Source: Massilia atriviolacea (GTDB lineage Bacteria > Pseudomonadota > Gammaproteobacteria > Burkholderiales > Burkholderiaceae_D). Taken from it: a DNA stretch of 64,000 nucleotides. The notes under the pieces were generated by a model that made no database searches, had not been told where the DNA came from, and worked only from the letters and a program-made list of their open reading frames with translations. How positions within the stretch are numbered: position 1 is the stretch's first letter; the number at the start of each line of letters is the position of its first letter. The translations under genes were made by a program, and so were the position numbers. The DNA lies in the NCBI RefSeq assembly GCF_003953935.1, contig NZ_RXLQ01000007.1:186001-250000 (forward strand), read 5' to 3'. This document shows, piece by piece, positions 17,318 through 31,543 of this stretch.

Positions 17318-18078
17318 TTAGTGGCGCAGGTTGTAGCCGCGCTTGAGCAGGTTGATGGCGATACCCGCGAGTACCGCGAAGAAGGCCGACACGATCGCCA
17401 GGCTGGTCCACGGCGACACATCGGACTGGCCGAAGAAGCCGTGGCGGAAGCCGTCGATCATGTAGAAAAACGGATTGAAGTGCGACACGGTGAGCCAGAA
17501 CGGCGGCAGCGAGTGGATCGAGTAGAACACGCCGGACAGGAAAGTGGCAGGCATGATCAGGAAATTCTGGAACGCGGCCAGCTGGTCGAATTTTTCGGCC
17601 CAGATGCCGGCAATCACCCCCATGGTGCCGAGGATGGCGGCGCCCAGCACGGCGAAAGCCAGGATCCACAGCGGCGCCGCGAACGACAGCTTGGCGAACC
17701 ACACGGTGGCGATGAAGACGCCGAAGCCGACCGTCAGGCCGCGCACCACGGAAGCGAGCACGTAGGCCGACAGGATCTCCCAGTGCGACAGCGGCGGCAG
17801 CAGGATGAACACCAGGTTGCCGGTGATCTTGGACTGGATCAGCGAGGACGAGGAGTTGGCGAAGGAATTCTGCAACACGCTCATCATCACCAGGCCGGGA
17901 ATCAGGAAGGCGGTGTAGTTCACGCCGCGCACGTTGACGTGCCCTTCGAGCACGTGGCCGAAGATCAGCAGGTACAGCATGGCCGTGAGCACCGGCGCGG
18001 CCACGGTCTGGGTGGCCACCTTCCAGAAGCGCAGCATTTCCTTGTAAAGCAGGGTCTGGAAGCCCACCGAGAACATAT

Positions 18079-21566: not shown

Positions 21567-22346
21567 TTAGTTGAACATCATCGCGGTCATCACGAAGTCC
21601 AGACCCCAGACGGTCAGCGACGCGATTACGACGGTACGGGTGGTGGCGCGCGACACGTCTTCCGGCGTCGGCTGGGCCTGGTAGCCCTGGAACAGCGCGG
21701 TAAAGGTAACGGCGATGCCGAACACAAAGCTCTTGATGATGCCGTTGACCACATCGTGCTGCACATCCACATTGGCCTGCATCTGCGACCAGAAGGCGCC
21801 TTCGTCGACCCCGATCAGCTGCACGCCGACCAGGTAGCCGCCGACCACCCCGACCGCGCTGAAGATGGTGCCGAGGATCGGCATCGCAATGACGCCGGCC
21901 CAGAAACGCGGCGCCAGCACGCGCTGCACCGGGTTAATCGCCATCATTTCCATGGCCGAAAGTTGCTCGCCGGCTTTCATCAAGCCGATCTGGGCGGTGA
22001 GCGAGGTACCGGCGCGGCCGGCGAACAGCAGCGCGGTCACGACCGGCCCGAGTTCGCGCACCAGCGCCAGCGCGACCACCTGGCCGAGTTTCTGTTCGGC
22101 GCCGTAGGGGGTCAGGGTGATATAACCCTGCAAGCCGAGCACCATGCCGACGAACAGGCCGGAGACGATGATGATCACCAGCGAGTAATTGCCGATGAAA
22201 TGAATCTGTTCGGCGATCAGGCCGGGACGGCGCAGTGCGCCGCCGGTCACGCCCAGCAGGGTGAAGAAGGAGCGCGTGGCGAAGCCGACGCTGGCGATAT
22301 TTTCGCGCACGGACTGGCCGATGGCGCCGAGGAAGTTAGCGATCAC
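21567..22346 (-). CDS. mlaE: Phospholipid ABC transporter permease MlaE
   Basis: 259-residue permease with a GTG start overlapping the mlaF stop by 4 bases. It has five to six hydrophobic helices and the MlaE/YrbE motif ELGPVVTALLFAGRAGTSLTAQIG. It forms the inner-membrane channel with the MlaF ATPase and the MlaD ring. Confidence 0.96.
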   Translation of the reverse strand: MIANFLGAIGQSVRENIASVGFATRSFFTLLGVTGGALRRPGLIAEQIHFIGNYSLVIIIVSGLFVGMVLGLQGYITLTPYGAEQKLGQVVALALVRELGPVVTALLFAGRAGTSLTAQIGLMKAGEQLSAMEMMAINPVQRVLAPRFWAGVIAMPILGTIFSAVGVVGGYLVGVQLIGVDEGAFWSQMQANVDVQHDVVNGIIKSFVFGIAVTFTALFQGYQAQPTPEDVSRATTRTVVIASLTVWGLDFVMTAMMFN

Positions 22347-23146
22347 TTGCGCTCTCCCAGGCCCAGGTCCTCGGCCAGCGACTTGCCGGGGTAATGGAAA
22401 GGCACGGGGCCGTCGGGTGCGGCGTTGACGAACTGCTTGACGTAAGGGTCTTCGGACACGCGCATGTCGGCCGGCGTACCCTGGGCAACAATCTTCCCAG
22501 CGGACATAAAGTACACATAATCAGCGATCGCAAAGCACTCGTGCACATCGTGCGACACCAGGATCGAGGTGGAGCCGAGTGCATCGTTGAGCCTGCGGAT
22601 CAGGTTGGCGGTAACGCCCATCGAAATCGGGTCGAGGCCGGCGAAGGGTTCGTCGTACATGATCAGTTCCGGATCGAGCGCGACGGCGCGGGCCACGGCC
22701 ACGCGGCGCGCCATGCCGCCGGAGATTTCGGCCGGTTTCAGGCGGGCGGCATTGCGCAGGCCAACCGCGTTGAGCTTGAGGAGCACCAGGTCGCGGATCA
22801 GTTCGTCGGGCAGGTCGGTGTGTTCGCGCAGCGGGAAGGCGACGTTTTCGAACACGGTCAGGTCGGTAAACAGGGCGCCGAACTGGAACAGCATGCCCAT
22901 CTTGCGGCGCAGGCGGTACAGGTTATCGGTGTCGAGTTCGTGGACGGTTTCGCCGGCCACGGTGACAGCCCCTTTCTGCGGACGGATCTGGCCGCCGATC
23001 AGGCGCAGCACCGTGGTCTTGCCGCAGCCGGAGCCGCCCATGACGGCCACGACCTTACCGCGTGGGAAGTCCATCCGGAGGTTCGACAAGATCGAACGGT
23101 CGCCGTAAGAAAAATGTAGATCGCGGATTTCGACAAGATTAGACAC
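22343..23146 (-). CDS. mlaF: Phospholipid ABC transporter ATPase MlaF
   Basis: 267 residues if it starts at the GTG at 23146 (MSNLVEIRDLHFSYGDR), which gives the family's usual length. An in-frame TTG at 23194 would add 16 residues and cannot be excluded; neither has a strong ribosome-binding site. Walker A is GGSGCGKTT (37-45), signature ISGGM (141-145), and Walker B LIMYDEP with Asp165-Glu166. It is the first gene of the long mla-his-tat block. Confidence 0.94.
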   Translation of the reverse strand: MSNLVEIRDLHFSYGDRSILSNLRMDFPRGKVVAVMGGSGCGKTTVLRLIGGQIRPQKGAVTVAGETVHELDTDNLYRLRRKMGMLFQFGALFTDLTVFENVAFPLREHTDLPDELIRDLVLLKLNAVGLRNAARLKPAEISGGMARRVAVARAVALDPELIMYDEPFAGLDPISMGVTANLIRRLNDALGSTSILVSHDVHECFAIADYVYFMSAGKIVAQGTPADMRVSEDPYVKQFVNAAPDGPVPFHYPGKSLAEDLGLGERK

Positions 23147-23237
23147 GGCGCTGTTCGTATTTGGGAATGGCGTATTGTAGTGCAGAAAGGGCAATCTCTG
23201 CTGAGGGGCCCCCGATCCACGGTGGGTACGCGAGGCC

Positions 23238-23447: not shown

Positions 23448-24186
23448 TGTCCACCCCGGTGCCAGGTCTGACAATCGGACACGGGCTCAGCCTCAGAAAA
23501 TCATTTTTTGGGTTAAAGCCGAGCTTGTGTCCGAAAGTCAGACCTGGCACCGAAGTGGACATGTTCGCTTTAAAAGCTGAGCTTGTGTCCACCCCGGTGT
23601 CAGGTCTGACAATCGGACACGGGCTCAGCTTCGAAAAACCATGTTTAGCTTTAAAGCTGAGCTTGTGTCTGAAAGTCAGACCTGGCACCGAAGTGGACAT
23701 TTTTAGCTTTAAAGCTGAGCTTGTGTCCGAAAGTCAGACCTGGCACCGAAGTGGACATGTTTACTTTAAAAGCTGAGCTTGTGTCCACCCCGGTGTCAGG
23801 TCTGACAATCGGACACGGGCTCAGCTTCGAAAAACCATGTTTAGCTTTAAAGCTGAGCTTGTGTCTGAAAGTCAGACCTGGCACCGAAGTGGACATTTTT
23901 AGCTTTAAAGCTGAGCTTGTGTCTGAAAGTCAGACCTGGCACCGAAGTGGACATGTTTAGCTTTAAAGCTGAGCTTGTGTCTGAAAGTCAGACCTGGCAC
24001 CGAAGTGGACATGTTTAGCTTTAAAGCTGAGCTTGTGTCTGAAAGTCAGACCTGGCACCGAAGTGGACATGTTTAGCTTTAAAGCTGAGCTTGTGTCTGA
24101 AAGTCAGACCTGGCACCGAAGTGGACATGTTTAGCTTTAAAGCTGAGCTTGTGTCTGAAAGTCAGACCTGGCACCGAAGTGGACAC
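23448..24186. repeat. Complex array of 58-bp and 80-bp repeats, 12 cores in two orientations
   Basis: Units begin GAGCTTGTGTC at 23521, 23579, 23659, 23717, 23775, 23855, 23913, 23971, 24029, 24087 and 24145; the steps are 58 bases except two of 80. In the 58-bp units the core reads AAAGTCAGACCTGGCACC and then GAAGTGGACAT. In the two 80-bp units, and in a divergent copy at 23448, the core is inverted (GGTGTCAGGTCTGACAATC). Most units carry the 12-bp palindrome AGCTTTAAAGCT in the linker. Block 23579-23774 (80+58+58) is repeated as 23775-23970. Since 58 is not a multiple of 3, it is not coding. It lies between the gltD stop and the mlaF promoter region. Confidence 0.95.
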
Positions 24187-24196
24187 GGGCTGTTCG

Positions 24197-25660
24197 TTAG
24201 CGCGGCAGGACCGATTCGCCCATCAGGAACTCGTCGACGGCGCGCGCGCACTGGCGGCCTTCGCGGATCGCCCACACCACCAGCGACTGGCCGCGCCGCA
24301 TGTCGCCCGCCACGAACACTTTCGGCACCGACGTCGCGTAGCAGCCGTCGCCCTCGGTTGTGGCCTTGGCGTTGCCGCGCGCATCTTTTTCCACGCCGAA
24401 GGCATCGAGCACCTGTTGTACCGGCGACACAAACCCCATGGCCAGCAGCACCAGGTCGGCCTTCATCTCGAATTCGGAATCCGGCACTTCGATCATCTTG
24501 CCGTCTTTCCACTCGACGCGGCAGGCGACCAGCTTCTCGACCTTGCCGCCCTTGCCTTCGAAACGCTTGGTGGCGACCGCCCAGTCACGCTCGCAGCCTT
24601 CTTCGTGCGAGGAGGAGGTGCGCAGCTTGGTCGGCCAGTACGGCCACACCAGCGGCTTGTTTTCCTGCTCGGGCGGCTGCGGCATCAGTTCGAACTGGGC
24701 CACCGACAGCGCGCCATGACGGTTCGAGGTGCCGACGCAGTCGGAACCGGTATCGCCGCCACCGATCACGACCACGTTCTTGCCGCTGGCCTTGATCTGG
24801 TCCTTGAGCTTGTCGCCGGCATTGACCTTGTTTTGCAGCGGCAGGAAATCCATGGCGAAGTGCACGCCCTTGAGCTCGCGCCCCGGCACCGGCAAGTCGC
24901 GCGGCTGCTCGGCGCCGCCCGCCATGACGATGGCGTCGAAGTCTTTTTCCAGGTCTTCCGGGAAAATCGTTTCCTTGGCCCAGTTATTGACCGAGGCGGG
25001 GAAGTCTTTGCCGACCAGCACGCTGGTGCGGAAGGTCACGCCTTCGGCTTCCATCTGCTTGACGCGCAAATCGATGTGGGACTTTTCCATCTTGAAATCG
25101 GGAATGCCGTAGCGCAGCAGGCCGCCGACGCGGTCGCTCTTTTCGAACACGGTGACAGCGTGGCCGACGCGCGCCAGTTGCTGCGCCGCCGCCAGGCCGG
25201 CCGGGCCGGAGCCGATGATCGCGACTTTTTTTCCGGTCACTTTTTCCGGCGGCTGCGGCACTACCCAGCCGTGTTCCCAGCCGGTATCGATGATCTTGTG
25301 CTCGATCGATTTGATGCCGACCGGGTCGTTGATGATGCCCAGGGTACAGGCCGACTCGCAGGGCGCGGGACAGACGCGGCCGGTGAATTCGGGGAAGTTA
25401 TTGGTCGAGTGCAGGTTTTCCAGCGCGGCGCGGTAATTGCCGTGAAAGACCAGGTCGTTCCAGTCGGGGATGATGTTGTTGACGGGACAGCCGCTATTGC
25501 AGAAAGGGATGCCGCAATCCATGCAGCGCGCCGCCTGCACCTTCGCTTGCGGGTCGCTCAGGTGCAGAACGAATTCCCTGTAGTTCTTGACCCGTGCCGC
25601 AGGCTCGAGATAGCCCTCGTCCTGACGCTTGAATTCCATGAAGCCGGTGATTTTACCCAC
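24197..25660 (-). CDS. gltD: Glutamate synthase small subunit
   Basis: 487 residues with a GTG start preceded by AAGGAAA. The FAD/NADPH-binding subunit passes electrons to GltB. N-terminal Fe-S cysteines are Cys46, Cys49, Cys54 and Cys58 ([14 protein letters not shown]) and Cys97, Cys101 and Cys105. The dinucleotide fold [13 protein letters not shown] is near residue 150. A second NADPH fold [13 protein letters not shown] follows. It lies 66 bases after gltB, and its 3' end abuts the repeat array. Confidence 0.97.
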
Positions 25661-30707: not shown

Positions 30708-31409
30708 TCAAAGGGCCGGAGCCTTGATTTTGAACGGTCTGCCGCGCTTGGCGGGGAGCACCTGCCGTTTGGCGCGGTGTTGCAATTCTGTCTTAAAAGC
30801 ATCGGAGCCCAGGGGCCAGCCCTTGAGTACGGCGCCGTCGATCCGGTCGAGCTGCTCGCGGGTCAGGGCTGGACGGCTCAGTTCGATGTAAGCGGCTTCG
30901 CGCTGGAAGGGCGTGTTGCCCAGGGCCCAGTACAGGGCGTGGTCGGTGATCAGCCTGTCGGGCTGGGCGCCGGCGTGGTGGGGGTAGCTCGACCAGGGGT
31001 AGTTCAGGGGATCGGACACCAGCTCGCTGCGCACCGGATTGTGTTCTATATAGCGGCTGCAAAGCAGGAAGTAGGCGGCGGCGTCGATCGGCGAGGTTTT
31101 GAAGCGCCCCTGGAACAGGCCGCCGCTGCGGCCGTACTTGGCGTTGAACCAGGGAACGTAATAGCGGCCGACCCGCTGCATGGTCTGGGCCAGGCCTTCC
31201 ACGGTCGAGGGCGAGGCCAGCAGGTGCAGGTGGTTGGGCATCAGCACATAGGCGTGGATGGCGACCTTGAATTCCCTGGCGCTGTCGTTCAGCCAGCCGA
31301 GAAAGCGCTGGTAGTCCTCGGCCTCGCGGAAAATCGGCTGGCGGTCGTTGCCATGCTGGATGATGTGGTGCGGCTGATTGGGAATGACGAGACGGGGAAG
31401 ACGGGCCAT
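30708..31409 (-). CDS. REP-associated tyrosine transposase (RAYT), IS200-like
   Basis: 233 residues from the ATG at 31409 (MARLPRLVIPNQPHHIIQHGNDRQPIF); a longer frame to 31439 is less likely. Y1 HUH single-strand endonuclease: the metal-binding HLH is at residues 60-62 (MPNHLHLL), and a catalytic Tyr is probable at 83 or 84 in GRYYVPWFNAKYGRSGGLFQGRF. RAYTs process REP-type palindromes rather than whole insertion sequences. The frame looks intact. It is flanked by paired motifs and has its own terminator, so it is an independent unit. Confidence 0.88.
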   Translation of the reverse strand: MARLPRLVIPNQPHHIIQHGNDRQPIFREAEDYQRFLGWLNDSAREFKVAIHAYVLMPNHLHLLASPSTVEGLAQTMQRVGRYYVPWFNAKYGRSGGLFQGRFKTSPIDAAAYFLLCSRYIEHNPVRSELVSDPLNYPWSSYPHHAGAQPDRLITDHALYWALGNTPFQREAAYIELSRPALTREQLDRIDGAVLKGWPLGSDAFKTELQHRAKRQVLPAKRGRPFKIKAPAL

Positions 31410-31543
31410 GGCGGTACGCAATTGAACGGATCGCGCCATGTTACCGCATCGGCGCGACTCTGTCCCTGATTAAAAAGGGATGCATCGCCAACCGTCCCGG
31501 CTCTGTCCCTGTTTAATCGACAATGTAACCGTTTACGTCGCGC

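Follow-up and report, generated by a model that had tools for sequence, protein, structure and literature searches.

What is the large array of two-orientation repeats that separates the ORF called gltD from the block of genes called mla, and how did it come to be there? The array lies in a stretch of 64,000 nucleotides of the Massilia atriviolacea genome (contig NZ_RXLQ01000007.1, positions 186,001 to 250,000), which we call the window and to which all coordinates refer.

Organization of the array in the window

The array extends from position 23448 to position 24185 and consists, according to repeat and core searches and to an alignment of units, of 12 copies of a 47-bp TIR unit in the order - + - + + - + + + + + +. 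When the window was searched with the 15-bp core described below, allowing up to three mismatches, 13 matches were found, a stray one at 17733 and the 12 of the array, of which 9 are forward and 3 inverted, as originally predicted. Shuffling the window gave a mean of 2.09 matches (maximum 7 in 100 shuffles). Core search and unit alignment placed an inverted unit 1 at 23448–23494, with TGTCC at its left outer end, a forward unit 2 at 23515–23561, an inverted unit 3 at 23586–23632, forward units 4 and 5 at 23653–23699 and 23711–23757, and an inverted unit 6 at 23782–23828, units 3 and 6 both having the core GTCAGACCTGACACC. They are followed by units 7 to 12 (23849–24185, plus strand), six tandem forward copies with a period of 58 bp, the last of which (24139–24185) ends in GTGGACA.

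The 58-bp units of the original prediction were found again (99% matches over 23836–24185), as was the duplicated 196-bp super-unit (23502–23893, plus strand), whose two copies, at 23502–23697 and 23698–23893, are 97% alike. An "80-bp unit" had also been proposed. It corresponds to the distance between the two cores of each inverted/forward pair, which is 79 bp. The 12-bp palindrome that had been noticed in the linkers (AGCTTTAAAGCT) is present 8 times; in the alignment of units it falls outside the shared 47 bp and belongs to the local linker. Since linkers vary between sites, this palindrome, the 58-bp period and the 79-bp spacing are specific to this site.

The ORF called gltD (24197–25660, minus strand in the ORF list) has its stop codon 11 bp away from one end of the array, and the array precedes the block called mla, whose head ORF (22343–23194, same list) is on the minus strand as well. 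The array is very probably non-coding, in agreement with the earlier view, and a coding array was ruled out: none of the frames is open throughout, and a period of 58 bp changes the frame from one unit to the next. A CRISPR-like array was also ruled out, because the linkers are near-identical within the array and match its inner flank. No gene that would make it an IS or a MITE with its own gene was seen inside it.

The array belongs to a genome-wide repeat family

The 15-bp core, GTCAGACCTGGCACC, occurred 292 times in the 7,355,158-bp genome, in both orientations and with at most one mismatch, and the same search with the core pattern read backwards returned 0 copies. Dispersed copies, the existence of which had been raised by the original prediction, are thus present, with further copies in relatives, and the earlier view of the array as specific to an operon boundary was not supported. 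Places are known for at least 100 of the 224 exact core copies (contigs C1–C23). We read 25 sites, of which 23 came from placed copies, the other two being the window array and the RAYT locus described below. Four of the 25 were single copies, and the dispersed copies include dimers and clusters.

Alignment of 156 copies, with equal weight for each site (site L079, at a contig end, made no contribution), revealed the 47-bp unit that is common to the sites. Its outer edge is sharp, the information dropping from 1.41 to 0.21 bits after GTGGACA, and on its inner side the information fades over about 12 bp. Beyond the outer edge there is only a weak CGG.C.GG-like extension, with at most 0.48 bits. 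The ends read GGTGCC or GGTGTC in the window genome (GGTGCCAG or GGTGTCAG), as against a published GGGG start. Inspection of the unit consensus showed no GTAG, and a GTGG at the outer end without a hairpin after it; the stable single-unit hairpin with a GT[AG]G foot, which characterizes canonical REPs and REPINs, is not found in this unit.

The bases just outside the core are GAAG in 9/9 forward units and GGGG in 3/3 inverted units of the window array, and two subfamilies, one per orientation, had been proposed. This distinction is correct within the window array but did not extend to the 25 sites (152 units, both orientations), where we counted 22 GAAG, 15 GGGG and 41 other sequences among forward units, and 18, 25 and 31, respectively, among inverted units (p 0.18 for GAAG versus GGGG by orientation). 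Orientation-specific subfamilies were therefore rejected, GAAG and GGGG being present in both orientations.

One RAYT gene is flanked by the same units

The genome contains four matches to Y1 transposases, and only one of these genes has the core within about 1.5 kb on either side. At this locus (L031/L088), which is on the same contig as the array and about 90 kb away from it, 8 inverted units are found on one side of the gene and 3 forward units on the other. A Y1 HuH transposase gene between inverted copies of a repeat is what characterizes a TIRYT or TIRtron. The encoded protein (P0001, 289 residues), which has an HuH-tyrosine core, reached 88.5 bits with the NCBIfam REP-associated tyrosine transposase model (cut-off 80), and its C-terminal part resembles helix-turn-helix domains HTH_23 (E 3.9e-5) and HTH_28 (E 7.2e-5), each 1–2 bits below the Pfam cut-off. 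Its motifs NHFH, FQGRY and YIVLNP fit the key motifs NH[YF]H, FQ and Y[IV]xLNP that the accessible part of PMC6006769 gives for subclass 2.1. A search of solved structures with the RAYT alignment yielded only three weak matches to the ribosomal protein L27e (E about 0.003), which we took as chance.

A second RAYT-like ORF (30708–31439, minus strand, 243 aa), upstream of a gltB-like gene, scored above the Pfam Y1_Tnp cut-off and below the NCBIfam one. It was ruled out as the cognate gene, as no array core was found beside it and the genome holds a single copy of a 13-mer taken from its flank. A similar ORF is present about 6 kb from gltD in six genomes (G125, G148, G170, G192, G138, and G181), and the 13-mer was found once each in G000, G148, and G170 and was absent from the other four genomes. 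These data suggest vertical inheritance of the ORF, with no dispersed repeat that has the exact flank sequence.

RAYT genes of relatives carry related inverted repeats

Sampling 294 genomes from the family to which the host belongs yielded 30 RAYT loci, including that of the window genome. For 27 of the 29 others, the best inverted repeat across the gene was a variant of CGGGGTCAGGTCTGACATTCGGACACG, with scores of at least 14, and no TIR was found across the gene in L050 and L051. These scores were obtained without a shuffled control, and the lowest were those of L054 (14, i.e., the largest null score in the test of named loci) and of L059 and L039 (15). The named loci made up a second set of 80 RAYT loci, mostly from Proteobacteria with a few other MAGs, 74 of which had enough flanking sequence. 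An inverted repeat scoring at least 16 was present in 51 of these 74 loci, versus 0/370 shuffles (largest score 14), and 47 of these 51 TIRs contained a string resembling GGGGWSAS, the motif published for TIRYT ends (PMC3733652), as detected with a looser pattern that also admits GGTG. The two sets overlap, and some genomes supply several loci.

In relatives, the TIR ends read GGGGTCAGG. TIR matches were observed in 24 of the 26 genomes with a close RAYT, in 1 to 257 copies each; four of these genomes had only 1 or 2 matches, which are perhaps the gene's own ends. No match was found in two of the 26 RAYT-bearing genomes, nor in any of four hand-picked genomes without a close RAYT. In one relative (G045, loci L296–L305), TIR arrays, mostly with a 31-bp period, are found on either side of unique segments, one of which is a RAYT gene, and the linkers vary within some of its clusters.

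Clusters start with an inverted and end with a forward unit

At the sites examined in the window genome, the first unit was inverted and the last one forward in all 17 mixed clusters, 13 of which were fully sorted. The corresponding probability is about 1e-10 if units are assumed to be independent and about 8e-6 with one choice per cluster, which allows for tandem copies retaining their sign. The same rule was obeyed in two other genomes by 28/28 mixed clusters (among 100 of 217 places listed) and 9/9 mixed clusters (39 of 39), and by 13 of the 14 mixed clusters viewed in G170, where L291 showed the opposite order and where the orientation of units is less certain because the core is nearly palindromic. 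This polarity is that of an element with outward-turned ends, one or both of which have been multiplied.

Duplication junctions

A mismatch-tolerant search for junctions identified 59 unique breaks; relative to the end of the unit, 34 of these were in the range from -7 to +1, and 11 coincided with it exactly. This search was superseded by a flush test, in which the break is assumed to follow GGACA and the next bases are compared with the inner flank. Among 91 eligible tandem pairs, we found 41 unique flush junctions and 31 pairs that were not flush, 13 of which start, as the outer extension does, with CG; the remaining 19 pairs were repeat cases or had too short a linker. Eighteen flush rows were left out because a unit end also forms their inner side (17 GACA, 1 GGAAA), and 23 rows from 14 sites were kept.

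A C was present two bases before the inner break in 19 of these 23 rows, for a C frequency of 0.277 in the local sequence (p 7e-8). Its frequency was 16/19 (p 5e-7) without the four rows that are ambiguous through shared bases, including that of the window, and 13/16 (p 1e-5) without three further rows in which the neighbouring sequence is similar or shifted, all three p values being post hoc. In the accessible text of PMC8266576, characterized TnpAREPs cut C|T, and one of them also cuts at CA. A C-based rule thus suits this class of enzymes, with the break one base further 3' in the present case. The junctions look more like the products of enzymatic cut-and-join than of slippage, and a transposase may have made them.

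Comparison of sites with relatives

Cores with either A or G at position 10 number 270 in the window genome and 146, 72, 20, 0, 0, and 0 in six relatives. No close RAYT was found in the relatives with 72 and 20 copies, indicating that core copies persist without a RAYT. At the cognate locus, the RAYT gene is absent in five relatives and partial in G170, where its first 113 residues (84% identical) are found, apparently at a contig end.

Fourteen sites were compared with 60 stretches from five relatives, 11 of which gave no right-flank match. The 16 two-flank comparisons with G192 and G138, which are free of the family, showed no core in 14 instances and a single weak match in the 2 others, not all of these gaps being clean joins. 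In G125, G148, and G170, 21 of 33 comparisons showed 1 to 5 cores and 12 showed none, some having short remnants. At the compared sites, the arrays of the window genome were longer than those of the relatives. The gap between gltD and mla contains 4 cores in G170, in the order - - + +, and hairpins of the CCGTC..GACGG type, identified by eye, in five other close relatives. It is therefore a recurrent repeat site, since relatives (L090–L095) hold different palindromic repeats there.

Short tandem runs restricted to the outer 10–17 bp of the unit (for example, CCCCCGGTGTC repeated) were also observed in relatives beside TIR units (L228, L234, L095, and L218), and represent a second kind of small duplication.

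The units themselves differ between genomes. Genome-wide, position 10 of the core is G in 224/270 copies here versus 9/146, 10/72, and 5/20 in relatives. At the sites read, the GGACA extension is present in 144/156 units here versus 1/54 in G170, 0/17 in G125, and 1/8 in G148. This second contrast is partly the result of selection, because the sites were chosen by core variant (they were found via the G form here and mostly via the A form in G170), which does not affect the genome-wide count at position 10. Because the arrays of the window genome consist mostly of a unit variant that is rare in relatives, the unit population seems to have turned over in concert. Several sites being common to relatives, the units at shared sites appear to have undergone replacement or conversion, and not simple inheritance; new insertions into the old sites may be an alternative.

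Folding and gene context

For a pair of facing units, the folding energies as DNA were -43.4 and -44 kcal/mol, with z scores of -10.9 and -12.0. The last unit in its native form, taken together with its flank, folded no better than shuffled sequences (z -0.57 and -0.97), and two idealized, hand-made units with completed arms gave z -3.7 and -3.5. An Rfam search with E up to 1 returned 17 matches, none above the gathering score. Six terminator-like matches were found inside the array, all of them plus-strand and so facing against gltD and mla, and one on the minus strand just outside it (23438–23416). Neither search gave positive support to the terminator, insulator or small-RNA functions that the original prediction had suggested. 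By a rough ORF heuristic, 7 of the 25 sites are flanked by convergent genes, 9 by codirectional genes and 4 by divergent genes. Of the others, 2 are single copies within an apparent ORF, and 3 were left unclassed. An effect of the array on the expression of gltBD or mla is possible.

Discussion

Several features can be read directly in the genomes, namely the repeat family, the gene that it flanks, its dispersed copies, the short clusters or coreless sites of relatives, the polarity rule and the many flush junctions. Because the same units flank a RAYT gene and the RAYT genes of relatives carry related TIRs, we consider it likely that the array is a cluster of the TIRs of a TIRYT/subclass 2.1 RAYT, amplified in this genome, most likely through cut-and-join by the RAYT. 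A short cluster of facing units, such as is found in one relative, was probably once present between gltD and the mla block, and would then have been amplified in the window genome. The RAYT would cut one strand precisely 3' of the outer end of the unit (GTGGACA^) and also at a looser site (CN^) further in, and the free 3' end would then be joined, in another copy, to the 5' end on the inner side. Each arm could in this way gain head-to-tail units, with linkers specific to the locus, and such growth would preserve the order in which clusters begin with an inverted and finish with a forward unit. The role of the RAYT as the cutter, the strand that it cuts and its activity at the present day are inferred. 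Several observations speak against this reading: the GGTGCC or GGTGTC ends, the 31 pairs that are not flush, the inner break one base 3' of the known C|T cut, the copies that persist in two relatives with no close RAYT found, the RAYT-bearing genomes with no TIR match (two) or with only 1 or 2 (four), the loci L050, L051 and L054, and the reversed cluster of G170.

Another way to obtain the same arrays would be that the RAYT spread the TIRs in the past, and that the tandem copies then multiplied by slippage or unequal recombination, with no enzyme involved. The units of the 58-bp part are indeed 99% alike, several junctions, including that of the window, share 1–5 bp across the break, and the 31 pairs that are not flush also fit this mechanism, as do the super-units duplicated whole (196 bp here and about 150 bp in L083), which recombination explains well. 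It accounts less readily for the fact that first-duplication junctions coincide, after GGACA, at sites with unrelated linkers, and that the C at -2 is kept at 13/16 unambiguous inner breaks where no longer match is obvious (post hoc p 1e-5). We regard growth without the enzyme as possible, though rather doubtful. An assembly artefact, or an array inflated by assembly, is most improbable. Some array sites are at contig ends (L079 and, in relatives, L199 and L227) and one linker contains an N, but the window array lies inside a 364-kb contig, between unique flanks, and the family and the order rule recur in other assemblies.

Selection could also keep the array as an expression element, the hairpins of which would end or protect the gltBD transcript and insulate mla, as in a BIME. 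The strong DNA fold of a facing pair (z -10.9 and -12.0) agrees with this, as do the palindromic repeats seen by eye in the same gap of 6/6 close relatives (five of the CCGTC..GACGG type and one TIR cluster) and the position of 16 of the 20 sites with genes on both sides downstream of at least one gene, by a rough call. However, there is no U-tract terminator in the direction of gltD inside the array, the copy number is far in excess of what a terminator needs, and, among the 4 distant gaps that were readable (six were unreadable), L098, L099, and L103 had no such repeat by eye, L099 having an ordinary terminator-like hairpin instead. This explanation seems unlikely to us.

If the array is indeed a TIR cluster amplified by its RAYT, one may tentatively extend the idea: RAYTs of subclass 2.1 could be active single-strand cut-and-join enzymes, which would amplify TIRs by cutting at GTGGACA^ and CN^, build two-arm arrays, and replace old variants, with concerted turnover as a result; we put this forward as a conjecture that may well prove wrong. 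The duplication scars suggest how TIR clusters grow. The genome offers dozens of readable junctions together with an apparently intact cognate gene, relatives supply short clusters and coreless sites for comparison, and the question can be reduced to one oligonucleotide assay: does the RAYT cut after GTGGACA?

Comparison with known systems

The original prediction knew of no described family for this array. The TIR repeats of TIRYTs, or subclass 2.1 RAYTs, do fit. A literature search with strings of the repeat sequence gave nothing on topic among the matches listed, as judged by title, and a search on REPs and transposases in Oxalobacteraceae found nothing.

The hairpins that fill the gltD–mla gap in five close relatives (CCGTC..GACGG) correspond, by eye, to the CGTC-tagged repeats of PMC3733652. 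These differ in sequence from the array and, in the portion of that paper available, seemingly lack a dedicated transposase. With the REPs, REPINs, and BIMEs of groups 2 and 3, as presented in the accessible part of PMC8266576, the family shares facing pairs, tandem mosaics, one single-copy cognate RAYT, and a mostly extragenic location, but a single unit has no GTAG-footed stable hairpin. Furthermore, enzymes of groups 2 and 3 cut C|T, and one also CA, whereas the scar found here follows the A of CA.

The closest relationship of the enzyme is with TnpAREPs of subclass 2.1, which is group 1 of Bertels (Quentin et al. 2018, PMC6006769), through NH[YF]H, FQ, Y[IV]xLNP, and a C-terminal domain resembling HTH_23/HTH_28. 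The accessible text of that study reports that no REP-like sequences were found beside subclass 2.1 genes and mentions the link with TIRYTs; the repeats described here are, by contrast, abundant and structured. TIRtrons (Di Nocera et al. 2013, PMC3733652) are similar in having a RAYT gene between inverted repeats unrelated to GTAG REPs, dispersed TIR copies with dimers and clusters, and a consensus, GGGGWSAS, that fits GGGGTCAG in relatives. In the available part of the same paper, TIR families are moderately abundant, and TIRtrons and TIRs are found together in few genomes. The present family differs from the published TIRtrons by its hundreds of copies, its long tandem arms, and its GGTGCC variant with the GTGGACA extension, and also by the scars at its junctions and a turnover that seems to have been concerted. 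We thus place the array, as a large and lineage-specific member, in the TIRYT kind of repeats, which has already been described. The novelty lies less in the kind than in the abundance of the repeats, the growth of their arrays, the scars left at junctions, and the seemingly concerted turnover.
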